DNA from: Bacteroidales bacterium
GTDB lineage: Bacteria > Bacteroidota > Bacteroidia > Bacteroidales > UBA932
Assembly: GCA_024401715.1 (NCBI GenBank)
Contig: JAKSKO010000005.1
Location: 1-53,315 of the forward strand
DNA length: 53,315 nt
Direction of reading: 5' to 3'
Below, piece after piece: positions 1-46,733 of this stretch. The translations under genes were made by a program, and so were the position numbers. The notes under the pieces were generated by a model. The model had not been told where the DNA came from and searched no databases. It worked only from the letters and a program-made list of their open reading frames with translations. Each line of letters opens with the position of its first letter. Position 1 is the first letter of the stretch.

Positions 1-142
1 TTATGCAACGCCCCGCCCGGGGCATTACACCACCATCATCCTATCTCCACATCGTCTGCAGCGGCAACAGCGGCCGGGAGGAAGGACGTGCAGAAGGTGA
101 AGCCCAAAAATCAGCTGTAATAATTCTATTATAATATAGAAT
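1..142. other. Intergenic stretch at left edge with two inverted repeats
   Basis: No convincing gene is visible here. A GC-rich inverted repeat (GCCCC / GGGGC) lies near positions 10-23. A perfect 7-bp AT-rich inverted repeat, ATTCTAT / ATAGAAT, lies at 123-142, directly after the mmdB stop codon. The second could be a weak 3' processing or termination hairpin for the mmd operon, but it has no clear U-tract. Confidence 0.35.
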
Positions 143-1285
143 CTAGCTGAGGAAGCAGAGGAGGATACCGGCGGCCACGGCGCTGCCTATGACGCCGGCA
201 ACGTTAGGGGCCATGGCATTCATCAGAAGATGGTTTTTAGGGTCGAATTCCCTGCCTACGGTCTCTGATACGCGGGCGCTGTCCGGAACGGCAGATACGC
301 CGGCATTGCCTATCAGAGGGTTTATCTTCCTGTCTTCACTAAGGAAGAGGTTCCATATCTTCACGAACAGAACGCCGCAAGTGGTTGCAATTATGAAGGA
401 CACCAGACCCAGCCCGAAGATAAGGGCGGAGCGTCCCGTAAGGAACTTGTCTGCCTGGGTGCTTGCGCCCACGGTGAATCCTATCAGAATGGTTACGACG
501 TCAATCAGCGGGCCGCGTGCGGTTTCGGCCAATCGGCGCGTTACGGTGCTCTCCTTCAACAGGTTACCGAAGAACAGCATACCCAGAAGCGGCAATCCGC
601 TTGGCACTATCACTGCGGTGAAAATAAGACCTATGATAGGGAAGATGGCCTTCTCCCTCTGCGAAACCTGGCGCGGGGTTGGCATCTTTATCAGACGCTC
701 TTTCTTCGTTGTGAGCAGCAGCATTATCGGCCTCTGGATTACAGGCACCAGCGCCATATATGAATAGGCTGATACTGCAATGGCGCCCATCAGGTCCGGT
801 GCCAGCTTGGAGCTTAGGAAGATGGCTGTTGGGCCGTCGGCACCGCCTATGATACCTATCGCACCGGCCTCTGCAGGCATGAAACCAAGGCTGAGGGCCA
901 GCAGATAGGCCCCGAATATGCCCATCTGTGCCGCAGCGCCAATAAGCATAAGCCTGGGCTGCGAAATAAGGGCCGAAAAGTCTGTCATTGCACCTATCCC
1001 AAGGAAGATGAGTGGCGGATACCAGCCATAGCGCACGCCGGAATATAGGATATTAAGAACTGAGCCTTCCTCGTAGATGCCTATGTTCATGCCCTCCACA
1101 AAAGGGATGTTGCCCACTATCATGCCGAAACCTATGGGCACAAGAAGCAATGGCTCCCACTCCCTGCGTATGGCAAGGGTGATGAAGGTGATGCCTATGA
1201 CAATCATCAGGGCATGCTGCCATGTGAAGTTCGGGAAAGAAGTGTATGCCCAGAACTGTTGTAAACTTTCAAATATATTGTTCAT
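143..1285 (-). CDS. mmdB: Na+-translocating decarboxylase beta subunit (MmdB/OadB/GcdB family)
   Basis: This 380-residue polytopic membrane protein is the Na+ channel of biotin-dependent decarboxylases. It decarboxylates carboxybiotin and moves Na+ out of the cell. Family signatures are visible: GGADGPTAIFLSSKLAP near residues 145-162, the loop IQRPIMLLLTTKKER, and GNAGVSAVPDSARV near 328-341. Length is normal for the family (about 375-435). Its ATG shares one base with the TAA of the upstream biotin-carrier gene (TAATG), so the two are probably translationally coupled. With the carboxyltransferase at the head of the operon, the substrate is most likely methylmalonyl-CoA. Glutaconyl-CoA or oxaloacetate cannot be excluded from this subunit alone. 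Confidence 0.93.
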   Translation of the reverse strand: MNNIFESLQQFWAYTSFPNFTWQHALMIVIGITFITLAIRREWEPLLLVPIGFGMIVGNIPFVEGMNIGIYEEGSVLNILYSGVRYGWYPPLIFLGIGAMTDFSALISQPRLMLIGAAAQMGIFGAYLLALSLGFMPAEAGAIGIIGGADGPTAIFLSSKLAPDLMGAIAVSAYSYMALVPVIQRPIMLLLTTKKERLIKMPTPRQVSQREKAIFPIIGLIFTAVIVPSGLPLLGMLFFGNLLKESTVTRRLAETARGPLIDVVTILIGFTVGASTQADKFLTGRSALIFGLGLVSFIIATTCGVLFVKIWNLFLSEDRKINPLIGNAGVSAVPDSARVSETVGREFDPKNHLLMNAMAPNVAGVIGSAVAAGILLCFLS

Positions 1286-1851
1286 TACGCAATAGTCACA
1301 ATTTTAGCACCTTCCAGCACGGAATCGCCCACCTTTATATGTATGGCCTTCACAGTGCCGGCCTTCTCCGCCTCTATGGCGTTCTCCATCTTCATCGCTT
1401 CCAGCGTTGCCACCCTCTGGCCCGGCACAACATGGTCTCCAACGTTCACGCTTATGCCTATGATAACTCCCGGCAAAGGACATATCACGGTTCCGCTGCT
1501 CATTGTGTGCTGACGGCTTGCAGGGTCTGTTGCAATTAGATATTCATCGCTGTGGGCCGATGCAAAGCCCAGTTTCACGTTCATCGGGATGATAACTGGG
1601 GTAGGAAGCTGTCCGTATGGCTGTGAACTGCGGTTTATGGTAATGACACCGCTTTCCACATCGTGTGCTTCCTCTTCTTTCACAGGCTCCGGAATCTCGT
1701 TTGGCCTGATGTTCTTTGCATGCTTAAGCCGATACTCGAAGTACTTGCCCATGAGTGTGTAGCCCATGGCCAGCAGAAGCAGCGCCGCAAACACAACGCA
1801 GATGCACACTCCCGCCAGAACAAAGCCGTATGGTCCGTAAAGATTCTCCAT
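1285..1851 (-). CDS. Decarboxylase gamma/biotin carrier fusion protein
   Basis: The 188-residue protein has two parts. Residues about 8-35 form one transmembrane helix (YGFVLAGVCICVVFAALLLL), as in OadG/MmdD small subunits. Residues about 110-188 are a biotinyl domain with the attachment motif EAMKM, biotin lysine K154. A variable linker joins them. In many relatives the anchor (delta/gamma) and the biotin carrier are separate proteins; here one chain does both jobs, tethering the swinging biotin between MmdA and MmdB. It sits 3 nt after mmdA and overlaps mmdB by one base. Assignment of the biotin domain is firm; equivalence of the N-terminal helix to OadG is by position and shape. Confidence 0.9.
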   Translation of the reverse strand: MENLYGPYGFVLAGVCICVVFAALLLLAMGYTLMGKYFEYRLKHAKNIRPNEIPEPVKEEEAHDVESGVITINRSSQPYGQLPTPVIIPMNVKLGFASAHSDEYLIATDPASRQHTMSSGTVICPLPGVIIGISVNVGDHVVPGQRVATLEAMKMENAIEAEKAGTVKAIHIKVGDSVLEGAKIVTIA

Positions 1852-1854
1852 ATC

Positions 1855-3417
1855 TTACAAAGGCAGGTTGTCGTGCTTCTTGCACGGATTCTTCTGATCC
1901 TTGTTCTCCAGCTGCACCAGTGCGCGCGCAATGCGGAAACGTGTGTTTCTTGGCTCTATCACGTCTTCCACATAACCAGATTCCGCTGCCTGGTACGGGT
2001 TGTTGAAGAGTGCGTCATACTCGGCCATCTTCTCCTCCTTGAACTTCGCCTTCTGCTGCGGGTCTTCAATGGCCTTCAGCTGTTTTGCGTAAAGTATCTC
2101 CACTGCTCCCGATGCACCCAGCACGGCGATGTTTGCGCTTGGCCATGCATAGTTTACATCGCCCCTTAACTGCTTGCAGCTCATTACGATATGTGCGCCG
2201 CCATAGCTCTTGCGCAGGGTGACGGTTACCTTCGGGACGGTGGCCTCGCCATAGGCGTACAGCAGTTTTGCGCCGTTGCTTATTATGCCTGCATATTCCT
2301 GCTGCGTGCCGCAAAGGAAGCCCGGTACGTCAACAAGAGTTACCAGAGGGATGTTGAATGCGTCGCAGAAGCGTACAAAGCGTGCCGCCTTGCGTGAGGC
2401 ATTGATGTCCAGCACACCTGCAAGCACCTTAGGCTGGTTGGCAACAACGCCAACGGATTTTCCTCCTATGTGCGCAAAGCCAACGATAATATTGCGCGCC
2501 CAGTTCTTGTGCACCTCCAGGAAGCCCCCGTCATCCACAATCTCGCCAATGACGTCGTACATGTCATAGGCCTGGTTCGGGTTTTCCGGAATAATCTCGT
2601 TAAGACGGTCCGATACCCTGTCAACCGGGTCCTTCGTAGGAAGCTCCGGAGCCTTGCTTTTCCAGTTCTGGGGCAGGAAGCTTAGCAGGGCCTTTATCAT
2701 ATTGATGCCCTCTGTCTCATCCACAGCCGAAAAATGGGCCACGCCGGATTTCGATGCATGAACCGATGCTCCGCCAAGGTCTTCCTGGTTCACGTCCTCG
2801 CCTGTAACCTGTTTCACAACAGCAGGGCCGGTGAGGAACATATAGGAGCTGTTCTGGATCATTATGTTGAAGTCTGTGAGGGCGGGGGAGTATACCGCAC
2901 CGCCTGCACATGGGCCGAAGATGCCGCTTATCTGCGGAATCACACCGCTGTTCATTATATTGCGCTGGAATATCTCTCCGAAGCCGGCAAGGCTGCTGAT
3001 GCCCTCCTGTATGCGTGCTCCGCCGCTGTCGTTAAGGCCGATGAGGGGTGCGCCGTTCTCGCGCGCCATATCCATAACCTTGCAGATCTTGCGGGCCTGA
3101 ACTTCGCCAAGGGAACCTCCATTCACCGTGAAGTCCTGTGCGTATACAAACACCTGGCGTCCGTTTATTGTGCCCTGGCCGGAAATCACGCCATCTCCGT
3201 CAAAGCGGCTCTTGTCCATGCCGAAGTTGCTGCAGCGGTGCTGTACGAACATATCGTACTCCTCGAAACTGCCTTCGTCCAGCAGCTGGGCCAGCCTTTC
3301 CCTGGCTGTGAATTTTCCCTTGCTGTGCTGCGCTTCAATCCTCTTCTCTCCACCGCCCAATTTTGCGTTTGCACGGCGTTCCACCAGCATTTTTATGTTA
3401 TCTGTCTGTTTAGTCAT
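1855..3417 (-). CDS. mmdA: Methylmalonyl-CoA decarboxylase carboxyltransferase subunit
   Basis: The protein is about 520 residues and belongs to the acyl-CoA carboxyltransferase family (PccB/MmdA). It transfers the carboxyl group of methylmalonyl-CoA to biotin on the downstream carrier protein. Two crotonase-like halves are visible, with GLNDSGGARIQEG, GPCAGGAVYSPALTDF and QVTGEDVNQEDLGGA in the first and the acyl-CoA site region DVPGFLCGTQQE in the second. The ATG at 3417 (MTKQTDN) is preferred over an in-frame TTG at 3441, because that TTG lies inside a TAnnTTTG promoter box. It heads the operon mmdA - gamma/biotin carrier - mmdB, which in Bacteroidales serves succinate-to-propionate fermentation coupled to Na+ export. 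Confidence 0.92.
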   Translation of the reverse strand: MTKQTDNIKMLVERRANAKLGGGEKRIEAQHSKGKFTARERLAQLLDEGSFEEYDMFVQHRCSNFGMDKSRFDGDGVISGQGTINGRQVFVYAQDFTVNGGSLGEVQARKICKVMDMARENGAPLIGLNDSGGARIQEGISSLAGFGEIFQRNIMNSGVIPQISGIFGPCAGGAVYSPALTDFNIMIQNSSYMFLTGPAVVKQVTGEDVNQEDLGGASVHASKSGVAHFSAVDETEGINMIKALLSFLPQNWKSKAPELPTKDPVDRVSDRLNEIIPENPNQAYDMYDVIGEIVDDGGFLEVHKNWARNIIVGFAHIGGKSVGVVANQPKVLAGVLDINASRKAARFVRFCDAFNIPLVTLVDVPGFLCGTQQEYAGIISNGAKLLYAYGEATVPKVTVTLRKSYGGAHIVMSCKQLRGDVNYAWPSANIAVLGASGAVEILYAKQLKAIEDPQQKAKFKEEKMAEYDALFNNPYQAAESGYVEDVIEPRNTRFRIARALVQLENKDQKNPCKKHDNLPL

Positions 3418-3438
3418 AGTATCGTTTATAATAACTTG

Positions 3439-3446
3439 CAAATATA
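3439..3446 (-). promoter_or_regulatory. Candidate -7 box (TATATTTG) for the mmd operon
   Basis: On the minus strand the sequence reads TATATTTG, a perfect TAnnTTTG match, 22 nt before the mmdA ATG at 3417. No clean TTTG -33 partner is seen at the expected distance. Confidence 0.5.
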
Positions 3447-3451
3447 CAAAT

Positions 3452-3482
3452 TTTGCAACGAAAGTAAAAATGACTAACTTTG
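3452..3482 (+). promoter_or_regulatory. rnpB promoter (Bacteroidota type)
   Basis: TTTG at 3452-3455 and TAACTTTG at 3475-3482 are separated by 19 nt, matching the -33 / -7 layout of primary Bacteroidota promoters. The RNase P RNA begins about 18 nt downstream. Confidence 0.7.
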
Positions 3483-3500
3483 CAAATCTTTGAAATAAAA

Positions 3501-3833
3501 CAAGGTGGGGCGAGTTGTCGATGGGGGTATCCTTTCCTATGGAATGGTACCCATTCCATAGGAAAGTCCGGACAAGTAGGGCACCCTGCTGTGGAAAGCA
3601 CAGGTGGGAGTAATTTCAGGCAATCCGTAACAGAGACAGACCGCCAGCGATGGTAAGGGTGAAACCGTGAGGTAAGAGCTTACGCTGCAGCATAGCGATA
3701 TGTTGCAGGGACGGAGCCAGGGCTTGCAAGACCAAATATATCGGCACTATGGGCACTGCCCGTGCCCGCCGAGGGGTAGGTTGCGAAGATAAATGACAAC
3801 ACAAAACAGAAACCGGCTTACGGCTCCGCCTTG
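3501..3833 (+). ncRNA. rnpB: RNase P RNA, type A (rnpB), complete
   Basis: This is the catalytic RNA that trims tRNA 5' leaders. Helix P1 is formed by CAAGGTGGGG (3501-3510) and CTCCGCCTTG (3824-3833). Universally conserved blocks appear in order: GGAAAGTCCGGAC (3561-3573), ACAGAGACAGACCGCC (about 3629-3644), GGTAAGGGTGAAA (3652-3664), GTAAGAGCTTAC (3672-3683), AAGACCAAAT in J15 (3728-3737) and ACAGAAACCGGCTTA (3806-3820). The P17 hairpin GGGCAC/GTGCCC (3751-3767) has loop TGCCC, which pairs with GGGCA (3579-3583) to form P6. A T-tract (3834-3840) follows P1 and ends transcription. The stop codon of the convergent adenosine deaminase gene overlaps this T-tract. The region holds no protein gene, although reading frames cross it. 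Confidence 0.95.
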
Positions 3834-3838
3834 TTTTT

Positions 3839-4801
3839 TTACATTTTCCTTAATTTTTCCTTGATTTCTTCAGGGGCGAAAGAGATTTCTATCGCCTGCT
3901 TCTGCATTTCCATGATTTCGGCATCGGAATAGCAGAAGTTTTCTTTCAGAAGGCTGTATTCGCGCTCCAGTGTGGTGTTTTCAACGCAAGGATCATCGGT
4001 TGCCAGACAGAAACGTATGCCACGGCGTTTGAATTCCAGGATAGGTATCTCCTTAATGTCCTTGTATACACCGGTGCAAAGGTTGGAGGTTTGGCACACA
4101 GTAAGAGGAATGTTCTTCTGCTGCAGAAGGCTCATGGCCTCATCGCTAAGGGATGCCTGCACGCCGTGGTCTATGCGTGACGCACCAAGGTTTATGGCAT
4201 CTATAACGCTCTGCACGCCGTTTATCCTGGTTTCCCCGGCATGTATGCTAAGCGGAACGCCTGCCTGCCTTGCATGTTCAAAGAATGGGGCGTAGGAGGC
4301 TATGTCATATGTTCCGTCATCGCAGGCAAGGCCCATTGCCACAACACCCTTGCCATGATATTTAACAGCCAGACGGGCGGTCTCCATATTCTTGTCGTAT
4401 AGGGCGTCAAAAACCAGCCTTATGCAGCACAGGATGAAACGGGCGGGAACAATACTGTCGTCCAGGCCTGCAATGGCTGCCTGCAGGGCCTCTTCCTGGC
4501 CAAGGCCTCCATCCATGCAGAATATCGGGGCGAAATGAATTTCCGCGTATTCTATCCCGTTTTTCTTAAGGTCTTGCAGCAGATTGCGTACGCATTGGGT
4601 GATAGCCTCTTTTGTTTGCAGCAGGCTGCAAGGGTAGTGGAATTTGGTGAGGAACTCCGCCAGGGAATCGTTACCCGGCCTCACCTGCATTTTCTCTCTA
4701 AGTTCTTCATCTCCAAGAACAGGAAGTCCCTGCATTGCCGCAAGCATTCTGGCCGATTCAAATGAAACGGCTCCGTCAAGGTGTATGTGGAGGTCTATCA
4801 T
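3839..4801 (-). CDS. add: Adenosine deaminase family protein
   Basis: The 320-residue protein fits the metal-dependent adenosine/adenine deaminase family, which converts adenosine to inosine in purine salvage. Visible motifs are the metal-binding HIHLDG (residues 5-10), SIHAGET (about 185-191) with the metal-binding His, RIDHGV with the substrate His, and LATDDP near the C-terminus with the metal-binding Asp. Length is close to bacterial Add (about 330). It is encoded convergent with rnpB, and its TAA lies in the rnpB terminator T-tract. HicAB lies just upstream in the same orientation. It is one of the genes between the complete rnpB and the partial rnpB copy. Adenine versus adenosine specificity cannot be told by eye. 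Confidence 0.85.
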   Translation of the reverse strand: MIDLHIHLDGAVSFESARMLAAMQGLPVLGDEELREKMQVRPGNDSLAEFLTKFHYPCSLLQTKEAITQCVRNLLQDLKKNGIEYAEIHFAPIFCMDGGLGQEEALQAAIAGLDDSIVPARFILCCIRLVFDALYDKNMETARLAVKYHGKGVVAMGLACDDGTYDIASYAPFFEHARQAGVPLSIHAGETRINGVQSVIDAINLGASRIDHGVQASLSDEAMSLLQQKNIPLTVCQTSNLCTGVYKDIKEIPILEFKRRGIRFCLATDDPCVENTTLEREYSLLKENFCYSDAEIMEMQKQAIEISFAPEEIKEKLRKM

Positions 4802-4849
4802 TATTTATTTTCGCTGTGCAAATATCGCCAAATTATGCCGAAATCACAA

Positions 4850-5185
4850 CTAAACAACTGCTGCGTCAAGTGTTTTGCTTATGAATTTGTTTATTGTGAT
4901 TCCACTCATCATGGCTTTCTGTGCAATAAGACTGTGCGTCTTGGGGGATATCCTTATACTCAAAGTTCCTGAATATGTTTTTTCTGCTTTGATTCCCTGT
5001 TCTTTGCAGAATTCCAGATATTCATCAACAGTCTTGTGAAATTCTGAAACAAGTTCTTTTATTGTTTCAGCTTCATACGTGAGCAAAGAATTGACACCAA
5101 TTACTTTTCCGAAAAGGATGTTGTCTTCTATGCTATATTCTATACTTCCGAGGTATCCCTTGTATGTCAAGCATTCGTTATTCAT
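4850..5185 (-). CDS. hicB: HicB family antitoxin
   Basis: The 111-residue protein has the HicB layout: an N-terminal partial RNase H-like domain (YKGYLGSIEYSIEDN, residues 8-22) and a C-terminal ribbon-helix-helix DNA-binding segment (SGTLSIRISPKTHSLIAQKA, about 72-91). It should neutralise HicA and repress the operon. Its ATG overlaps the hicA stop by 4 nt (ATGA), so toxin and antitoxin are coupled with the toxin gene first, the usual hicAB order. Confidence 0.9.
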   Translation of the reverse strand: MNNECLTYKGYLGSIEYSIEDNILFGKVIGVNSLLTYEAETIKELVSEFHKTVDEYLEFCKEQGIKAEKTYSGTLSIRISPKTHSLIAQKAMMSGITINKFISKTLDAAVV

Positions 5186-5439
5186 AGCAATTCATTTTTT
5201 GTAAGCGTATCTATAATATTGTCAATTACGTACATCTTCAGTGTATTCGCCGGATGAGGAGTGTGAATCATTATTGTGATTCCCTTTTCACGATTGAGGT
5301 ATTTTACTCTTGAACCGGATGTCATTCCTTTATTATCCTTTTCAAAGCCCATAGAGTTTAATAGCTTGTCCAATTCATTAATTGTAAAATCTGTGGGGCG
5401 TCTTCTAAGTCTTTTAATCAGTTTGTCATTCTTTGTCAT
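5182..5439 (-). CDS. hicA: HicA family mRNA interferase toxin
   Basis: This 85-residue protein matches Bacteroidota HicA toxins, with a dsRNA-binding-like fold. The segments TSGSRVKYLNRE and IMIHTPHPANTLK correspond to the conserved GS[HR]..Y and H.PHP motifs. The usual GSH histidine is Arg here (GSR), as in the longer Bacteroidota subgroup, so catalysis likely relies on the distal His residues. HicA cleaves mRNA to halt translation. It is first in the hicAB operon and has its own promoter-like box 13 nt upstream. Confidence 0.87.
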   Translation of the reverse strand: MTKNDKLIKRLRRRPTDFTINELDKLLNSMGFEKDNKGMTSGSRVKYLNREKGITIMIHTPHPANTLKMYVIDNIIDTLTKNELL

Positions 5440-5451
5440 AAATTATTGGTG

Positions 5452-5459
5452 CAAATGTA
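5452..5459 (-). promoter_or_regulatory. Candidate hicAB promoter -7 box (TACATTTG)
   Basis: The minus strand reads TACATTTG, a perfect TAnnTTTG match, 13 nt before the hicA ATG. A possible -33 TTTG lies at 5475-5478, but the spacing (15 nt) is shorter than usual. Confidence 0.45.
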
Positions 5460-5572
5460 GTTAATTTTTGGTTACAAATTTCCTTTTTGCACTACAATTT
5501 TATGAAAAAGTATTCCAATGTTTACATTTCAAAGTAAGGTTTTGTGAATTTTGATGCTTTTTGTTTTTATTG

Positions 5573-5617
5573 AAAAAAAAGAAGGTGACCTTCAAGTCTT
5601 ACGACTATTGGGCCACC
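5573..5617 (-). terminator. Rho-independent terminator of the truncated lipoprotein gene
   Basis: On the minus strand GGTGGCC...GGTCACC closes a stem, with the inner stem AGTCGTAAGACT, followed by TTCTTTTTTTT. The plus-strand bases 5583-5606 recur exactly at 46743-46766. Confidence 0.75.
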
Positions 5618-5641
5618 CTCTTAATGATATATTGGAGATTG

Positions 5642-6376
<735 letters not shown>

Positions 6377-6513
6377 TGTTGCAGGGACGGAACCAGGGCC
6401 TGCAAGACCAAATTTATCGGCATTATGAGTACTGCCCGTACTCGCCGAGGGGTAGGTTGCGTAGATAAATGGCAGCACAAAACAGAAACCGGCTTACGGC
6501 CCCGCCTTGTTTT
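6377..6513 (+). pseudogene. Partial second copy of the rnpB 3' end (137 nt)
   Basis: Bases 6377-6513 align without gaps to 3701-3837 of the complete rnpB, with 12 differences (about 91% identity). The J15-P18 region and the ACAGAAACCGGCTTA block are intact. In P17 the stem GGGCAC/GTGCCC has become GAGTAC/GTACTC with loop TGCCC unchanged; that is two compensated base pairs. The 5' two thirds of the RNA, including the P1 5' strand and P4 5' strand, are absent, so it cannot be functional. It directly abuts the truncated lipoprotein gene and is in direct orientation relative to rnpB. Confidence 0.92.
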
Positions 6514-9744: not shown

Positions 9745-12207
9745 TTATTTGTAGAACTCAACACCGTTGAACTGGATGTATTTGTTGCTTGTGGCTGTAA
9801 CAGTCACATTGAAGACAAATTTGTAGTAGCAGTTTGCTGGGAAACCACCCTCTGGGATAATCTCAATCTCGCTTGTTGCTGCTGGTGTGAATGGAAGCTC
9901 TTTTGCCTCGCTGAAATCCTCTTTTGTTGAATAAACAAGTGTTGCAGAATTTACAGTGATGTCATTCATGAAACCAAAGGCAACAACAATCTTTGAAAGA
10001 GTAGTGCTCCATGCAGTTTTTGTATAAACTGTACGATCTACACCTTCGAGTGATTTGCCACCGATACGCCATGGGTGCATTGTTGAGTTACCCTGGAGGT
10101 TCCATACGATACCGTCAACCTCGATATCACAGTTGCCTGCATATGAGTTGTTAGAACCGTCAGGAACGTTGGCAGTCTCAAGAGAATATACAAGCTCACC
10201 TGGCTCTGGCTCTGGACCAGCGAATGGTACATATTCACCTTTTTCAAATGAGCCCATTGCTGTAATGAGAGTTTTGCCGTCCTCGCCAATCTGGAAACCG
10301 ATTGTACCGTCAAAAGCAGAACCGAGGTTCTCTGTTGCATCGTATGTGTATGCACTTGTCATGACATCTTCCCACCAGATACCTTCTTTGTCACCATTTG
10401 CAAAATAGCAGTTCTCTTCGTCCATGAAAGTAAGGATTGCAAAGCCGCCATCTGGGTCATTGGCATACTGATACCATGATGTCTCTGCAAGACCAATCTC
10501 TGGCTCTGGCTCTGGTTCTGGCTCTGGACCTGGAGTGCCTTCTTCGTACTTAACAAATACAACATTTGCATGACTTCCGCTGCTGCGGCTTACAAGATAA
10601 CCCTCTACTACGTATGTTTTACCGTTCTCGATACCTGCCTTCTGTTCAGCTGTACCCTGGTAAAGAGAGAAATCATGTGTGTCTCCCTCTGAAATCAGGA
10701 AGTTGTAGTAGTTACCACTGATTGAAGCGGTTGCAGTGAAGGTAATGTATTCTGCGAAATCATTGGCTGATGAAGAAACATATGCATCAAGTTTCGCCTT
10801 GTCATATACTACAGGCTGCGGATAGGTAAACTCGGCTGTACCATCTTTGGTTACAGTACAGTTTCCGCCTTCAAGCTGGAGTGCACCACCGTAATAAGTC
10901 ACTTTTGTACAGTTGATGACAACCTTTGTTCCGATAGGATACTCTGTTGCGTCAAAACCGCTGGCAAGGTAGTACAGTACAGAAGCAGTACCGTCTGAGA
11001 CTACAAAACCTCTTGCGTTAATGGCTGTAACCACCCCCTCGATATAACATGGGTTATTAAGGGTTATATCTTTGATGTCGCCTTTGTTACCACCCTGGGC
11101 AACTGAGAATTTAGCATCGCCAGAGTATGTTTTCTCGCCCTGTTTGAGCGAGGCTGTGATTTTTACTTCTGCACTTCTAGGAGCGCCATTATTTGCTGCT
11201 GCCTTGAATATGAGGCCTTCATTGTTTGTTCCGTAGTAGCTCAACCAATCAGCATCAAAGTCGACTTTGATCTGGTCTGCATTGATCTTTGCCTTGACAA
11301 TGAATTCGGTCTCCTCTTTCTCAACAGAAACAGACTGACTCTCGAGTTTGATAACCTCTGGTGCAGGATCTTTTGCTTCAACCAGGTAAGGAAGAAGAGC
11401 TTTGTCCTGCTTAGAGTTGTAAGCACCCCATGTTGAGTAGCCGGTTGAATACTGAATCCATTTGCCCTGAGTGGAAGTAATGTAGTACTCTGTCTCGGAA
11501 TCCTGCTCTACGCTCCATATCATTGCTTTTCCTTTCTCTGATGTGCGGTAGAAGTTGTTGTACTTGCCCGCAGCATCCTGATAGAGGTAACCTCCTTCAA
11601 CATCCTTGATAATGTAACCGCCATCAACAGCTTCGAATGTGAAAATGTTATTGGCAGTGGAAGACAGATCAGGGAATTTACCGCTGGCTGGCTCACATGA
11701 TACGTAACCGTATGAACCGGCATCGTCAATAGATGCAGTGCAGTGCTGTGATGCAAGCCATGAGCCATCTTCCTGCTGGAACATAAGCCAGTATTTGCCT
11801 GCCTTAAAATCAGGATATGGTGACGGAGCACCAGCCTCCATGTTGAATAAAACGAATTGGCTCTGTCCCTCACAGATGATCTCAATCTGGCATTTTGCTG
11901 CTTTTTTGCGAGCATCAGGAGAAGTGAATGTGACTTTTGTTTCGCCTCTCAAACCAACAAGAGGTTCAATTGTGAGGCCTTCTGGGAAAGCAGATTCTTT
12001 TTTATTTTTTACAACAACAGAGTCAACTATATGCCAATCTGCAGTTGCGTTTATTATAAGTGTTGCAGTTCCGCCCATTTTGTCAATTGAGACAAAGGTT
12101 TTATCCACTTTCAGTACATCAAGACTGTCGCGTTTAACCTCCTTGGTACATGAAGCAAATATGGATGCACCCGCAACAAGGGCGTATATGATATTTCTAA
12201 GTTTCAT
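9745..12207 (-). CDS. BACON/OB-fold multidomain surface lipoprotein
   Basis: The 820-residue lipoprotein (lipobox IFASC, Cys20) shows in order: a BACON-like domain (about 32-127), a beta-rich domain (about 130-290; YPDFKAGKYWLMFQ...), a second BACON-like domain (about 298-385), an OB-fold-like pair (about 388-570; PCYIEGVVTAINARGFVVSDG), a Pro-Glu linker, a roughly 85-residue domain starting LAETSWYQYA, a short PEPEP linker, and a C-terminal domain (about 675-820). BACON domains often bind glycans or mucin. The last domain is shared with the truncated gene at 5642-6376. It follows the TonB receptor by 20 nt in the same transcript and probably forms its surface partner, in place of a SusD. Confidence 0.82.
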   Translation of the reverse strand: MKLRNIIYALVAGASIFASCTKEVKRDSLDVLKVDKTFVSIDKMGGTATLIINATADWHIVDSVVVKNKKESAFPEGLTIEPLVGLRGETKVTFTSPDARKKAAKCQIEIICEGQSQFVLFNMEAGAPSPYPDFKAGKYWLMFQQEDGSWLASQHCTASIDDAGSYGYVSCEPASGKFPDLSSTANNIFTFEAVDGGYIIKDVEGGYLYQDAAGKYNNFYRTSEKGKAMIWSVEQDSETEYYITSTQGKWIQYSTGYSTWGAYNSKQDKALLPYLVEAKDPAPEVIKLESQSVSVEKEETEFIVKAKINADQIKVDFDADWLSYYGTNNEGLIFKAAANNGAPRSAEVKITASLKQGEKTYSGDAKFSVAQGGNKGDIKDITLNNPCYIEGVVTAINARGFVVSDGTASVLYYLASGFDATEYPIGTKVVINCTKVTYYGGALQLEGGNCTVTKDGTAEFTYPQPVVYDKAKLDAYVSSSANDFAEYITFTATASISGNYYNFLISEGDTHDFSLYQGTAEQKAGIENGKTYVVEGYLVSRSSGSHANVVFVKYEEGTPGPEPEPEPEPEIGLAETSWYQYANDPDGGFAILTFMDEENCYFANGDKEGIWWEDVMTSAYTYDATENLGSAFDGTIGFQIGEDGKTLITAMGSFEKGEYVPFAGPEPEPGELVYSLETANVPDGSNNSYAGNCDIEVDGIVWNLQGNSTMHPWRIGGKSLEGVDRTVYTKTAWSTTLSKIVVAFGFMNDITVNSATLVYSTKEDFSEAKELPFTPAATSEIEIIPEGGFPANCYYKFVFNVTVTATSNKYIQFNGVEFYK

Positions 12208-25839: not shown

Positions 25840-26478
25840 TTATTTGTTTTCTTTCTGATATCCCTTGCACCATTCCTTCAGGCCGCACTCTTCGCAATAG
25901 GGGTTGCGTGCCGTGCACACATAGCGTCCGTGAAGGATTATCCAGTGGTGGGCAATCGCCCTTATCTCTTCCGGAATGTTTCTGGTGAGGTCTTTCTCCA
26001 CCTGGTCCACATCCTTGCCCAGGGACAGTCCCAGCCTTCTTGAAACGCGGAAAACGTGGGTGTCCACCGCAATTACAGGGGCACCGAAATAGATTGATGC
26101 CACAACGTTTGCTGTCTTGCGTCCTACGCCGGGAAGTGTCATCAGTTCCTCAACTGTCTTTGGAACCTCGCCCCCGAAATCACTTACCAGCTTCTGCGCC
26201 ATGGCAATGAGGTGCGTTGTCTTGGAATTGGGATAGGATACGCTTCTTACCAGGTTGTACAGGCAGTCGTGGTCTGCCATTGCAAGCGCCTGCGCGTCCG
26301 GATAGGCCTGGAAAAGGGCCGGGGTAACCATGTTCACCCTCCTGTCCGTGCACTGGGCCGACAGCATTACCGCCACCAGAAGCTGGAATGGGTTCTGGTG
26401 CTTCAGCTCTGAATTGGCCTCCGGACGGTTCAGCTTGAACCAGTTGATTATGTTTTCGTATCTTTCCCTGGTTGTCAT
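25840..26478 (-). CDS. nth: Endonuclease III
   Basis: The 212-residue DNA glycosylase/AP lyase removes oxidised pyrimidines. Visible are the helix-hairpin-helix LMTLPGVGRKTANVV with the catalytic Lys, the catalytic Asp in VDTHVFRVSRRLGL, and the 4Fe-4S cluster loop C-x6-C-x2-C-x5-C (CTARNPYCEECGLKEWC). ATG 26478 is chosen because it overlaps the ftsE stop (ATGA) and starts at the family N-terminus (MTTRERYENIINWF). Upstream in-frame codons lie within ftsE. Confidence 0.95.
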   Translation of the reverse strand: MTTRERYENIINWFKLNRPEANSELKHQNPFQLLVAVMLSAQCTDRRVNMVTPALFQAYPDAQALAMADHDCLYNLVRSVSYPNSKTTHLIAMAQKLVSDFGGEVPKTVEELMTLPGVGRKTANVVASIYFGAPVIAVDTHVFRVSRRLGLSLGKDVDQVEKDLTRNIPEEIRAIAHHWIILHGRYVCTARNPYCEECGLKEWCKGYQKENK

Positions 26479-27176
26479 TGCTGCTGCTGGTTTTCCGATG
26501 TTTTTTCTATGCATTGCTTGTCTGCGCACAGGAATACGCGTCCCGGGTACTGTTCCACAATCTGGTTGTTGTGCGTAACCATCACAATGGCAGTTCCGTG
26601 TTCCCTGTTTATGCCGCGCAGGAGTCTCATGATTTCGTCCGATGTTGCGGCATCCAGATTGCCGGTGGGCTCATCGGCTATTATTATTTCCGGATCGTTA
26701 AGAAGGGCGCGGGCTATGGCAACGCGCTGCTGCTCTCCGCCGGATAGCTGGAAAGGCATCTTGTGGGCCTTTGTGGCCATGCCTACGTCTTTCAGCACCT
26801 TTTCTATCCTTTGCCTTATCTCCAATTTGTCTTTCCATCCGGTGCAGCGCATCACGAAGTCCATGTTGTCCCACACGCTGCGTTCCATAAGAAGCTGGAA
26901 ATCCTGGAACACCACGCCCATGCGGCGTCGCAGAAGGGGAATGTCGTTTTCCCTGATGCCGGCAAGGTTGAAGCCGCATACGGTGCCGGTTCCTTCGGTT
27001 AGCGGGTTTTCGGCAATCATTGTGCGTATGAGGGACGTTTTGCCGGAGCCGACCTTTCCAACAATGTAGACGAAATCGCCTTTGCAAACCTCCATGCTGA
27101 CGTCAAAAATCACGGGTGTTTCCGCGTTGCATATCCTGGCGTTTGCGAATTTTATGATTGGAGAAGTATCGGGCAT
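26475..27176 (-). CDS. ftsE: Cell division ATP-binding protein FtsE
   Basis: This 233-residue ABC ATPase has Walker A GKVGSGKTSL (residues 41-50), signature LSGGEQQRVAIARALL, Walker B IIIADEPTGNLD and a switch His in MVTHNNQ. FtsE works with the membrane protein FtsX to control peptidoglycan hydrolases at the division site. No ftsX is adjacent, as is common in Bacteroidota. It leads a run with nth (4-nt overlap) and probably the V-ATPase genes. A different ABC exporter role is possible, since small ATPases of this family look alike. Confidence 0.88.
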   Translation of the reverse strand: MPDTSPIIKFANARICNAETPVIFDVSMEVCKGDFVYIVGKVGSGKTSLIRTMIAENPLTEGTGTVCGFNLAGIRENDIPLLRRRMGVVFQDFQLLMERSVWDNMDFVMRCTGWKDKLEIRQRIEKVLKDVGMATKAHKMPFQLSGGEQQRVAIARALLNDPEIIIADEPTGNLDAATSDEIMRLLRGINREHGTAIVMVTHNNQIVEQYPGRVFLCADKQCIEKTSENQQQQ

Positions 27177-39247: not shown

Positions 39248-39255
39248 TTCTATCC

Positions 39256-39325
39256 CCCGGACATCGTTCCTTCCGGCGGTGGTGCTTCCGATGTGAAAAG
39301 GAAGTCCGGGTAATGCGCAGCAAAC
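39256..39325. repeat. Dispersed island repeat, copy 1 (longest)
   Basis: The segment CCGGACATCGTTCCTTCCGG...CAGCAAAC recurs in part at 40641-40681, 46263-46297 and 46469-46506. Part of it (AGGAAGTCCGG, 39299-39309) recurs inverted as CCGGACTTCCT at 39498-39508, so copy 1 may be one arm of a roughly 210-bp inverted-repeat structure ending just before the lipoprotein stop codon. The rest of 39326-39488 has no recognisable gene; short frames across it look spurious. Confidence 0.7.
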
Positions 39326-39509
39326 CCGTCGTCCTGTGCTGACGCACACCGGCTTGGAACTTTGTTCATTGCACGATTGAAAGCTGCTCTTTCGATTCAC
39401 CATTCGCTGCGCTCATTATCGAAACCCGCGACGCTTCCAATCGCACACTGAACTTCGTTCCCCACGCCATGGACTAGGGACGTTTGCCCGCACATCACCG
39501 GACTTCCTA

Positions 39510-40301
39510 TCATTCCGCCTGTAACTTTGCGAAATAGAAGGAAATATCCCTATCCAATGTTGTATCCCTCTCAAGTTGAAGAATATAGCTTTTGTTCAAG
39601 ACTTCTTTGAATACAAGATATCCGTTATCTTCAAATCCAATATGGTTGGATTGGAACAGATTCTCGTCATTCAATTCGATTACAGTGCCTTCCAGCTCAT
39701 CATCGTAATGCCAATTGAGAATGTCTTCCCAATTTTCATAATCGCTATAGTATAACAAGCCTTTTCCCCCGTTAACTTCTTTGATGAAAAACGGTTTCTG
39801 CTCCAGCCTTAGCCCCTTAATTTGTAGTATATCCGGTATTTGTTCTTCAAACAAAAATTCAATATCCGGCCGGCCATCTGGCACCAGTTGCAATTCGGCC
39901 CTATACACGCACCTGTATTTTTCCGGGTCTATGTCTTTCGGCGCTACTGTATTGCAGACAAATAGAACTCGGAATATAAAATCAACCTTTGATGTTTGTA
40001 GAATGACCTTACCACTTGAGTGGTCGGTAACCCGACATTCAAAACAATGTAAAAGAAAGTCGGAAATCGTTACATCGTAGCCGATAATATTATCATTTAT
40101 TTCATTTGTACCAGCGCTAGTTACTACTCCAGTATTGCTCTTTGGATCATAGACCACTGTAGGGTTTGAGATTTTCAAATAGTATGATGAATTGATAAAC
40201 CTCGGATCCTGACTCCTGTTATTGGAACCGCCCCCCCCACAGCTGATTACTGCAAATGTCAGGCTCGTAATTAAAAACAATTCTAAGGACTGTCTTACCA
40301 T
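39510..40301 (-). CDS. Lipoprotein of unknown function next to an Rhs tip, with a G8 tract
   Basis: The 263-residue protein has a type II signal peptide with lipobox VISC (Cys21), followed by Gly-Gly-Gly-Gly encoded by an eight-G run (C8 on the plus strand, 40231-40238). The mature part is mixed alpha/beta with no motif I recognise. It begins 3 nt after the stop of the Rhs tip fragment, the position usual for an immunity or partner protein of a polymorphic toxin, but the lipoprotein signal is unusual for cytosolic-toxin immunity. Codon use is more AT-rich than in the flanking housekeeping genes. Confidence 0.65.
   Translation of the reverse strand: MVRQSLELFLITSLTFAVISCGGGGSNNRSQDPRFINSSYYLKISNPTVVYDPKSNTGVVTSAGTNEINDNIIGYDVTISDFLLHCFECRVTDHSSGKVILQTSKVDFIFRVLFVCNTVAPKDIDPEKYRCVYRAELQLVPDGRPDIEFLFEEQIPDILQIKGLRLEQKPFFIKEVNGGKGLLYYSDYENWEDILNWHYDDELEGTVIELNDENLFQSNHIGFEDNGYLVFKEVLNKSYILQLERDTTLDRDISFYFAKLQAE
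40231..40238. repeat. Homopolymer C8/G8 tract within lipoprotein codons 22-24
   Basis: Eight consecutive C on the plus strand (G on the coding strand) directly after the lipobox Cys codon. Slippage by one base would shut the gene off, as in phase-variable surface genes. Confidence 0.6.
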
Positions 40302-40304
40302 AAC

Positions 40305-40595
40305 TTAAAAAACAACTGGTTCGGCGACGCAGAGAAATAAACCCAAATAATCAGTATTCCCTTTATGAGATTTCATCATTTCAGACACTAGTGACTCGTT
40401 TGTTTTAATAATTGCGGAAATCACTATTTTGTCGGGATACAATTTTCTAATAACCTTCCCGTCCGGGTCTACAAATATAACAGGATTATTGTTACAAAAT
40501 GCATACGGGGACAGATAATAGTACTTTTCTGCCATCGGGTCCGGTGAATTCCACCTTGCATTCTCCGGATTGTACAGTCTGGCGGGATAGTTCAA
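40305..40595 (-). pseudogene. Orphan Rhs core C-terminal fragment with variable tip
   Basis: The first 45 or so residues are the Rhs-repeat-associated core end: YPARLYNPENARWNSPDP, YYYLSPYAFCNNNPV and FVDPDGK. About 50 residues of non-core tip follow (IRKLYPDKIVIS...VAEPVVF). An intact Rhs protein would be over 1000 residues; the sequence upstream is a dispersed repeat, not Rhs. The apparent start is a TTG (40595), and the frame continues openly a little further upstream with no good start. It is best read as a displaced or leftover Rhs tip with its downstream partner lipoprotein. Confidence 0.75.
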
Positions 40596-41507: not shown

Positions 41508-42716
41508 ATGGAAAAAGATTTCAATGAACTGAAAGCCCGGATTCTTGAGGAAATCAAGGCCGGCAAGCCTCTTTTTGGCAAGGATGGAGCATTGGCTCCA
41601 ATGATTGAGAACATTGTTAACGCTGTACTTGAGGGCGAGATGGATGCCCATCTGACTCAAGAGACCAGAGAGTCGGGCAACCGTCGCAACGGCAAGATGG
41701 ACAAACAGGTGCGCACGCCTTTGGGAGACATCACCGTCAGCACTCCTCGCGACCGCGATGCCTCGTTTGATCAGCAGTTCCTCAAGAAGCGGGAAACGAT
41801 GCTGTCGGAGGGTATGGCTGAACGCATTATCGGCCTCTATGCCCTTGGCACCAGCACAAGAGACATATCCGACTGGATGGAGGATACAGTGGGAACATCC
41901 GTGTCGGCAGAAACTATCAGCGCAATAACCGACAGAGTACTCCCGGAACTTGAAGCGTGGCGCAACAGAACACTCGATGAGGTGTATCCCATCGTTTGGC
42001 TCGATGCTGTTCACTATAAAGTGATGGATGACAAGAACAGAGCTGTCACCCGTGCCATCTACAATGTGCTTGCAATCGACAAGGATGGTCACAAGGACCT
42101 TATTGGCATGTATGTCTCCAAAAGCGAAGGCGCCAACTTCTGGCTGAGCGTTCTGACGGACCTTCAGAACAGAGGTGTGAAAGACATTATGATTGCATGT
42201 ATCGACGGTCTCAGCGGCTTTCCGGATGCCATCAAGAGTGTATTTCCGAATACTGCAATCCAGCTCTGCATCATACACCAGATACGCAATAGCATGAAGT
42301 TCGTTGGCAGCAAGTATCAGAAGGAGTTCATGGCCGATCTGAAGCCAGTGTATGGCGCCGCCACAAAGGAAGCGGCCGAACTGGCTCTTGACAACCTTGA
42401 GAGCAAATGGGGCGAGCAATACCCGATTGTCATCAAGTCCTGGCGCGACAAGTGGGACAAGCTCAGCGAGTTCTTCCAATACACACCCGCCATACGTAAA
42501 CTCATCTACACCACCAATACCGTTGAAGGCTATCATCGGCAGATACGTAAAGTCACCAAGAACAAAGGGGTCTTTCCTAATGATACGGCCCCTGTCAAGC
42601 TTGTTTATCTGGCCTACCGCAATATCCGCAAGAAGTGGACAATGCCTATCCCCAACTGGGCAATCATATCCCAGCAGTTGGCTATCAAATTCGGCGACAG
42701 ATATCGCATAATGTAG
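41508..42716 (+). CDS. IS256-family transposase (mutator type)
   Basis: The 402-residue transposase contains the IS256 DDE triad: Asp166 (WLDAVHYK), Asp233 (IACIDGLSGF) and Glu340 (TTNTVEGYHRQIRK), plus CIIHQIRNS between them. The N-terminal DNA-binding region includes EMDAHLTQETRESGNRRNGK. The gene looks intact and full length (family 390-420). Element ends could not be set: the left end lies near 41440-41465 in the lipoprotein gene, and no convincing inverted match or target duplication is visible on the right. A 492-residue open frame on the opposite strand is a shadow. Confidence 0.95.
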   Translation: MEKDFNELKARILEEIKAGKPLFGKDGALAPMIENIVNAVLEGEMDAHLTQETRESGNRRNGKMDKQVRTPLGDITVSTPRDRDASFDQQFLKKRETMLSEGMAERIIGLYALGTSTRDISDWMEDTVGTSVSAETISAITDRVLPELEAWRNRTLDEVYPIVWLDAVHYKVMDDKNRAVTRAIYNVLAIDKDGHKDLIGMYVSKSEGANFWLSVLTDLQNRGVKDIMIACIDGLSGFPDAIKSVFPNTAIQLCIIHQIRNSMKFVGSKYQKEFMADLKPVYGAATKEAAELALDNLESKWGEQYPIVIKSWRDKWDKLSEFFQYTPAIRKLIYTTNTVEGYHRQIRKVTKNKGVFPNDTAPVKLVYLAYRNIRKKWTMPIPNWAIISQQLAIKFGDRYRIM

Positions 42717-45528: not shown

Positions 45529-45649
45529 CATCAATGCAGCCCCAGCTGCACCCATCGAAATCACGCGCTGACACAGTTCAGCGGACGCCCCCGAGAAATG
45601 ATAAAAAACGTTCCATATAGCTATCCAATTACTATCAAGTTTATTGAAC

Positions 45650-46195
45650 CTATACCATTTTAGCTAAGCCCTCGATGCAGGAGGGCAGCACCTCTTCGAG
45701 ATAGAATTTCTTTGCGGACTCTCCTGTAAATTGGGCATACCACCCATCTTCATCCTCCTTAATGGAAGCATAACGCTCATATTCACGAATTTCCTTTTGA
45801 GAAGGTTTCTCTTTCCCGAAATAATGCTTGTTGTCTATAGAAACAGGATACAATGTGATAAGGTACACACCGCTTCCACAAATCCACTCTCCGATACATT
45901 CTTTCTTCATGAGATGTTTCCTCATCCAAATATGAGTAATGAATGATATTTTGTCTATTGGGTATGATGATATTACTCCTTTGATATCATTCACATCAAT
46001 AGGGAAATACCAGTCACGGGATGTATTATCTTTCAAATATATCGGGACTTCATCAAACTCGCTAGGTGCAGCAAATGAATGCTCACTTGCAAATATATTA
46101 TCTTTCAGCTTCAATCTCTGACGACCACCCATCTTGTCGCCCAACTCACGATTCTTTTTCCAACTAGTCTGTTTGCGAAAGTCCTTTCCGTTCAT
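45650..46195 (-). CDS. Hypothetical protein, 181 aa
   Basis: The protein has no signal peptide or membrane segment, a basic N-terminus (KQTSWKKNRELGDKMGGRQR) and a mixed alpha/beta body with several aromatic residues (SRDWYFPIDVNDIKG, GEWICGSGVYLITLYPVS). I do not recognise the family. It stands alone in the island between the hairpin-rich region and repeat-rich DNA, with AT-rich codon use unlike the core genes. A role as an immunity or accessory protein is possible but unsupported. Confidence 0.6.
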   Translation of the reverse strand: MNGKDFRKQTSWKKNRELGDKMGGRQRLKLKDNIFASEHSFAAPSEFDEVPIYLKDNTSRDWYFPIDVNDIKGVISSYPIDKISFITHIWMRKHLMKKECIGEWICGSGVYLITLYPVSIDNKHYFGKEKPSQKEIREYERYASIKEDEDGWYAQFTGESAKKFYLEEVLPSCIEGLAKMV

Positions 46196-46262
46196 AATTG
46201 AGGCTTTTGGGTAAATTGCAATTTATCGGTGTAAATATAGTGAATTTGCAGCAAACTGTATC

Positions 46263-46506
46263 TTCCGGCGGTGGTGCTTCCGATGTGAAAAGGAAGTTGG
46301 TCAATCTTTTGCCGATATTTCTGCTTCCTGTCCACAAAAAGGGCCTTTCCTGTGGATAGAACGGTCAATTTGATGTTTCTGTCCACAAAAAGGGCCGTCC
46401 CTGTGGATACAACTTCCCCGAGACAATGAAGTTGTCGTCAAACGTCACCATCTCCAGGCTGGTCCCGGCCGATGTAAAAAGGAAGTCCGGGTAATGCGCA
46501 GCAAAC
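46263..46506. repeat. Dispersed island repeat, copies 3 and 4, split by an insert
   Basis: 46263-46297 matches the left part of copy 1 (39271-39305), and 46469-46506 matches its right part (39288-39325). Both halves contain CCGATGT-x-AAAAGGAAGT, so copy 1 appears split by about 170 bp flanked by this 18-bp direct repeat. The insert carries two 30-bp hairpin units. Confidence 0.7.
46329..46409. repeat. Two 30-bp direct repeats, each a TCCACA/TGTGGA hairpin
   Basis: Units 46329-46358 and 46380-46409 share 28 of 30 bases and are spaced by 21 bp. Each begins TGTCCACAAAAAGGGCC and ends CTGTGGATA, forming a short stem. The TATCCACA ends match eight of nine bases of a DnaA box. Confidence 0.8.
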
Positions 46507-46733
46507 TTATAATTCCAGGGGATCACGGCGGGCTAAAGCCCTGCTGTGAGGGCCGCTAGCATCAACATGCTCGCTGTAAACACCCTCAAGACCCCCGGGC
46601 AGGGAAAGGGGGATGGGGCCCGCAAGATACGAGTTATCGCGAAGCGATGACGAAGGAGATTGTGGGAGGGGCCGAAGTGAGGCGAAGCCGAACGGAGTTC
46701 CGACGATGACTCAGCCTGCGAACAATGTAGAAC
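46507..46733. other. GC-rich intergenic stretch without a recognisable gene
   Basis: It contains many short inverted pieces (GGGCTAAAGCCC, ATCGCGAAGCGAT), but no start, no long frame with protein-like composition and no RNA family I recognise. Confidence 0.4.

Follow-up and report, generated by a model that had tools for sequence, protein, structure and literature searches.

rnpB and the second copy of its 3' end

The stretch of DNA analysed here (the window, 53,315 nt) lies on contig C45 of a Bacteroidales genome assembly designated G000, which comprises 1.98 Mb in 79 contigs and was estimated to be 90.27% complete with 0.57% contamination. The window carries a complete gene for a bacterial class A RNase P RNA, rnpB, which matches Rfam model RF00010 with 171.7 bits and represents an ordinary member of this class. 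The 3' part of the gene (copy 1) recurs downstream in direct orientation (copy 2), 2676 nt away from start to start (Table 1). The copies align over 137 nt without gaps; 125/137 positions (91%) are identical, leaving 12 mismatches. A complete rnpB accompanied by a gap-free partial copy had been described in an earlier note on this DNA, and both features are confirmed by our searches. Live gene and fragment are the only two rnpB matches in the assembly.

Copy 2 is homologous to the last 137 nt of the class A RNA, but differs from it in that the 5' two thirds are missing and in that its score against RF00010, 42.7 bits, lies below the curated cut-off of 100. This score led us to reject it as a standalone RNase P RNA. 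Chance similarity was likewise rejected (E 1.1e-50 within its own genome). The fragment lacks the 5' strands of helices P1, P2 and P4 as well as the specificity part and therefore should not work alone. Nothing was found to suggest any function for it. The helix names used throughout (P1, P2, P3, P4, P12 and P17) are those that we take to apply to the base pairs derived from RF00010. Positions 3532–3566 of the live gene form a perfect 16-nt inverted repeat with a 3-nt loop, an enlarged hairpin that is presumably P3, and the gene is preceded by a TAnnTTTG-like motif, which we take to be a promoter.

Table 1. Features at the rnpB locus of the window.
Feature	Position	Strand	Remarks
rnpB, complete bacterial class A RNase P RNA gene (live copy)	3502..3836	+	RF00010, 171.7 bits, model 1–367
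5' strand of P4 (CAAG) with A3575	3573..3576	+	pair list from Rfam structure; G at this position in 44/44 aligned relatives and in G035, A in G006
Copy 1, repeated 3' part of live rnpB	3701..3837	+	direct repeat; T3724 pairs with A3575
add, adenosine deaminase-like gene	3839..4801	-	stop codon directly behind repeat; PF00962, 5e-66; TIGR01430, 224.2 bits (cut-off 216.55)
HicB-like antitoxin gene	4850..5185	-	PF05534, 1.1e-17; GC 0.36
HicA-like toxin gene	5182..5439	-	PF07927, 7.1e-08; GC 0.34
Lipoprotein-type gene, last 244 codons, beheaded at junction	5642..6376	-	no stop inside; own start gone
Junction lipoprotein-type gene/rnpB fragment	6376..6377	.	sequence
Copy 2, apparent 3'-terminal fragment of a second rnpB allele, no RNase P RNA by itself	6377..6513	+	91% to copy 1; 42.7 bits

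The 2.7-kb segment between the copies holds add, hicB, hicA and the end of a lipoprotein-type gene, and no recombinase gene. Similarity to add was detected in only 3/20 other genomes, at 23–28% identity; in wider genome contigs 94 stretches fitted a pattern for the protein, of which 0 were confirmed. The beheading of the lipoprotein-type gene, also reported earlier, is borne out: the reading frame is cut at 6376, stays open for 244 codons and has lost its start. Over 162 aa its product shares 64% identity with the C-terminal end of the protein encoded at 9745–12207. By sequence comparison the joint at 6376/6377 is non-homologous, and what follows the fragment does not repeat what follows the live gene. 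Behind the headless gene, positions 5526–5622 constitute a short dispersed repeat, perhaps of a terminator family, pieces of which (34–49 nt, 85–97% identity) are present on eight other contigs of the assembly (C9, C15, C16, C23, C55, C67, C70 and C76).

Base pairing and divergence of the two 3' ends

For comparison, the rnpB 3' end was searched in 101 genomes of the genus including the window's own, and was found in 86. A second search with a stricter threshold covered 400 genomes drawn from the larger genus and yielded the 3' end in 306 and no match in 94. Sixty rnpB neighbourhoods were fetched, of which 50 entered the 3'-end alignment, 44 the full-length alignment and 50 the count of first genes behind rnpB. 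Loci L034, L055, L059, L061, L117 and L119 are in the 3'-end set and were left out of the full-length alignment. Judged by mmdA, the nearest relatives among the 400 genomes drawn are G087 (84% identity) and G035 (83%), which served as sister species.

The base pairs that span the repeat were used to compare how the present 5' part fits either 3' end. Of the 40 pairs linking the 5' two thirds to the repeat, copy 1 forms 37 as standard pairs and copy 2 forms 35; inside the repeat 14 of 15 pairs are standard with either copy. In P4, the pair 3575/3724 is A-U in the live gene and becomes A.C with the C of the fragment. This pair is G-C in 45 of the 46 relatives inspected and A-U in one (G006), while A.C never occurs. 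The second pair broken by the fragment, 3621/3716, provides no evidence, because C.A is its commonest state among the relatives (11/44). P1 favours the fragment by one pair (3509/3825, G-C instead of G-U), whereas P2 favours the live copy, with two A-U pairs over G-U. As the C of the fragment would leave A.C in P4, a state absent from the 46 relatives, the fragment resembles the 3' end of a different rnpB allele from within the window's own small clade; the portion of copy 1 up to 3724 appears to belong with the present 5' part. The proposal that the two 3' ends stem from two different alleles thus gains support, since the fragment does not complete the P4 pair of the live gene.

G006, whose gene is split over two contigs, has the lone T at 3724 among 50 relatives and carries the matching A in its 5' part, and so shows the two sides of the P4 pair changing together. 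Its loci L060 and L059 (contigs C12 and C5) represent a second, apparently independent CAAG/CTTG (A-U) form of P4 in the genus. The A-U pair at 3575/3724 has therefore arisen at least once elsewhere and could, in the window, also postdate the junction.

Next to pairing, we considered which copy had changed. Polarisation by G035 and G087 assigned seven changes to copy 1 (3716, 3724, 3747, 3754, 3764, 3786 and 3825) and three to copy 2 (3738, 3752 and 3766), with two sites ambiguous (3796 and 3799). Two compensatory double changes in P17 had previously been attributed to the fragment. Both are real, but the fragment's line accounts only for pair 3752-3766 (gene G-C, fragment A-U); at pair 3754-3764 (gene C-G, fragment U-A) it was the live gene that changed. 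At position 3738 all 50/50 relatives have A and the fragment has T, which we read as a sign of lost constraint. Four-fold sites of six window genes diverge from G087 by 1.1–1.5 (Jukes-Cantor; a row for oadB versus G035, with 26% identity from a wrong-strand reading, was discarded), the rnpB 3' third by 0.31–0.35. Four-fold sites thus diverge about 3–5 times more, and a dead copy should therefore change about 3–5 times faster than the gene. The chance that at most 3 of 10 changes fall in a dead copy is P 0.004 at a 3-fold rate, 0.02 at a 2-fold rate and 0.17 at equal rates; if both ambiguous sites are given to copy 2 (at most 5 of 12), the values are 0.014, 0.07 and 0.39, respectively. Because the fragment has fewer changes than the live gene, with one compensated P17 pair on either side, it is unlikely to have been drifting as a dead copy ever since the two sequences diverged, a statement that rests on small numbers and two sister species and fails if the right part of copy 1 is foreign. 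The 7 changes in copy 1 versus 3 in copy 2 also agree with the earlier view that the fragment is not an old dead duplicate. A dead fragment drifting since the split is unlikely as the sole account, given these counts and the rate test.

The affinities of the copies were further assessed with trees. In a tree of the 3' third, copies 1 and 2 are neighbours on a branch without support value, but they do not form a pair when the tree is computed from 3725–3837. The copies share nine states against both sister species. Within the first 24 nt of the repeat they differ at 2 sites only, compared to 6–12 in the six relatives shown, while over 3725–3837 copy 1 has 10 differences from copy 2, 12 from G087 and 13 from G119 and is thus roughly equidistant from all three, an unevenness along the repeat that weighs against two alleles of one small clade. 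Topology tests were run on 14 chosen rows with 5000 resamplings, a number flagged as too few by the program. In the approximately unbiased test on these short sequences, 'copy 1 with copy 2' obtained p 0.47 on the 137 nt and 0.37 on 3725–3837, and 'copy 2 with G035 and G087' 0.50 and 0.62; neither grouping was separated from the other. Grouping of copy 1 with G119 and G154 was rejected on the 137 nt (p 0.02), but not on 3725–3837 (p 0.051).

Gene neighbourhoods of rnpB in related genomes

In G087, a rimO-like cluster is followed further on by oadB, mmdA, one gene, a gene for an NADH:flavin oxidoreductase-like protein and rnpB (names read from sequence). G035 has mmdA and the same oxidoreductase gene up to a contig end; on another of its contigs (C119, locus L034) nth and an FtsE-like ABC gene come immediately after rnpB, without the intervening V-ATPase operon present in the window and in G087. 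In the window, mmdA directly precedes rnpB; the oxidoreductase gene is absent there, with only a 66% homologue on C23. The window's nth (25840–26514) comes after the V-ATPase operon, which is also the order in G087. Judged by this gene order, both flanks are clade neighbours of rnpB, mmdA with reference to G087 and nth with reference to G035. The first gene behind rnpB belongs to 31 families in the 50 neighbourhoods with sufficient room, a count made from crude gene calls of which several start inside rnpB and are doubtful. It suggests that gene content behind rnpB turns over. Neither a donor nor an unrecombined locus was found among the genomes examined; as the nearest mmdA of the 400 genomes drawn is only 83–84% identical, donor and recipient cannot be assigned.

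Two further similarities to G087 were recorded. The 19 nt that open the window's rnpB sit directly on the oxidoreductase stop codon in G087 (L033, 11649–11667), as if the genes were co-transcribed; the Rfam match there begins at C19:19773, 125 nt further downstream, leaving a long extra stretch before the match. Moreover, 46526–46593 of the window matches the end of the G087 contig that carries rnpB (87% over 68 nt).

Origin of the fragment

Genomic islands at the 3' ends of tRNA and tmRNA genes use site-specific tyrosine recombinases, and in canonical integration the intact gene consists of the host's 5' part and the 3' end brought by the element. The window resembles such islands in that a direct repeat of the 3' end of an RNA gene bounds the segment on both sides and the gene is whole. 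It differs in that the contig has no PF00589 match, that the 137-nt repeat contains 12 differences and that the 5' part pairs in P4 with its own end. The three PF00589 matches of the assembly are on C39, C44 and C62, so the earlier statement that no integrase remains holds for the contig as far as this family is concerned. Seven long frames from these integrase loci, possibly encoding chromosomal recombinases, had no match in the window or in the 60 neighbourhoods and recovered only themselves as a control; with so few queries this is a weak test of low sensitivity. Exact-match searches of IMG/VR with a clade pattern and with a general motif yielded no contig. Among 20 window proteins scanned against Pfam, the only recombinase was a Mutator-family transposase. 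Its gene (41508–42716; PF00872, 3e-98) lies between multi-copy repeats (39251–39821, 40453–40577 and 45637–46500) that recur with up to 99–100% identity on C7 and also on C14, C26, C37, C44 and C56. No report of rnpB as an integration site was found: in excerpts from PMC2516327, PMC2386152, PMC3541175, PMC8776855, PMC5462765, PMC4256840 and PMC2705793 rnpB figures as a marker, an annotated RNA or a promoter, and excerpts from PMC2996960 and PMC3053259, retrieved for partial rnpB copies, contain nothing bearing on this case. Given the missing integrase and viral matches together with the P4 pairing, the description of the repeat as a classic trace of site-specific integration is not supported, and rnpB is not a demonstrated attachment site here.

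Integration by a single crossover of the Campbell type, through RecA or a since lost site-specific recombinase, is unlikely as well, but accounts for several features. An insert carrying a partial rnpB would have recombined within 3725–3746, so that the live gene took the 3' end of the insert and the fragment is the host's own 3' end. Integration is weakened because the 5' part and the live 3' end share the unusual A-U pair in P4; a crossover to the right of 3724 escapes this objection. It would also explain why clade states at 3747, 3754, 3764 and 3786 are found in the fragment and not in the gene. Right of 3746 the fragment indeed shares with G035 and G087 states that are rare among the 50 aligned relatives (counting G035 and G087 themselves, 3747 T in 2, 3754 T in 2, 3764 A in 2 and 3786 T in 3). 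Copy 1, for its part, agrees with G119 and G154 in having 3747 C and 3786 A, in a region of uncertain P17 alignment. The clade neighbour nth on the right flank, the G-C pair 3509/3825 formed with the fragment, the scarcity of add in the 20 other genomes compared and the AT-rich hicAB point in the same direction. The view of the fragment as the host's own end is thus opposed by P4 pairing and favoured by the clade states beyond 3746 and by the nth flank. G035 has rnpB next to nth without the segment, yet this locus also lacks the V-ATPase operon and further genes, and no relative has the same flanks. Besides the absence of recombinase and viral matches, it argues against this integration that the left end of the repeat, which would have arrived with the insert, resembles the window more than any other part does, unlike what a foreign origin would give, and that copy 1 does not group with G119 and G154 on the 137 nt, although it may do so on the right part. 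An old tandem duplication, in which two full rnpB genes worked for long before the second lost its 5' two thirds, or in which gene conversion kept a dead fragment similar, is improbable. It fits the neighbouring position of the copies in the 3'-third tree and their nine shared states. However, among the matches listed every second rnpB copy in another genome of the genus lies at a contig end, fragment and gene are not followed by copies of one sequence, and gene conversion should not leave 12 differences including a P4 mismatch.

It is also rather unlikely that the contig is a chimera, in which one species supplied 1–6376 and the remainder (6377 onwards) stems from a sister-species contig with its start inside rnpB. 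Other assemblies of the genus do break at rnpB, where contig ends overlap exactly by 99 nt (G003) or 141 nt (G106 and G006), lengths that are k-mer-like, and further contigs begin or end inside the gene. The 9% difference between the copies exceeds what we would expect between strains, and two strains of the clade would yield the halves in just this order. Two rnpB matches per genome were obtained in 5/101 genomes (G000, G003, G005, G006 and G098) and, in the second search, in 5/400 (G000, G003, G106, G256 and G301). Outside G000 the second matches, among the matches listed (G301's place not among them), are all at contig ends; the ends overlap exactly by 23 nt in G005 and differ in G098 (83% over 253 nt) and G256 (99% over 287 nt). 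They look like assembly breaks or mixtures, not second genes. The locus pairs L053/L054, L117/L118 and L059/L060 are cases of this kind, in which the contigs are interrupted within rnpB and overlap exactly by 99 or 141 nt. Against a chimera, the window contains no N and no repeated 55-mer, and the longest exact match between the copies is 25 nt. Window positions 1–55 equal the ends of C23 and C8, in C23 over 55 but not 56 nt; from this exact match, the assembly graph was probably built with k=55. In such a graph the copies would stay separate, and the join would have required spanning reads unless it resulted from gap closure. Contamination is low (0.57%), and beyond repeats and one paralogous stretch the assembly has no diverged second copy of 6514–46500. 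Repeats that recur on other contigs of the bin lie in each half as well as in the middle: 1–82 (94%, C20), 45637–46284 (99%, C7) and the dispersed repeat at 5526–5622. Such repeats make a chimera less likely, but only to a degree, as a sister species could share them.

The likeliest explanation, to which we give a probability of roughly 0.45, is that a second rnpB allele, belonging to the same small clade, left its dead 3' end at 6377–6513 in a recent and partly illegitimate recombination. Incoming or resident DNA with a complete rnpB, add, hicAB and the lipoprotein-type gene would have been joined to a chromosome whose rnpB was cut mid-gene, at the hairpin 3687–3706 (presumably P12). Exchange would have been homologous on the mmdA/rnpB side and illegitimate on the other, beheading the lipoprotein-type gene, and the cell would keep one working rnpB, with fragment and headless gene as scars. 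The absence of a stop from 244 codons of the headless gene suits a recent cut. Homology-facilitated illegitimate recombination of this kind is described for experimental transfers in PMC3240628. The event proposed here is alike in combining homologous exchange at one end with an illegitimate join at the other (6376/6377), and differs in being deduced from one assembly, where a homologous joint would leave no mark in the absence of a donor sequence.

For metagenome assemblies, rnpB emerges as a break point, and a partial second copy found there may be either biological or artefactual. Provided that the junction is genuine, the fragment is a datable scar, the base pairs across the repeat assign 3' ends to 5' parts, and an RNA gene can report on recombination between species. 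One may even speculate, although we consider it doubtful, that in this genus the conserved core of rnpB regularly serves as an entry site for DNA exchanged between species, by which the 3' end and the genes behind it are swapped and 3' fragments remain as scars. If so, the window would represent one such event at an early stage, and the gene turnover behind rnpB, with its 31 families in 50 neighbourhoods by crude gene calls, would be the long-term trace of this process.
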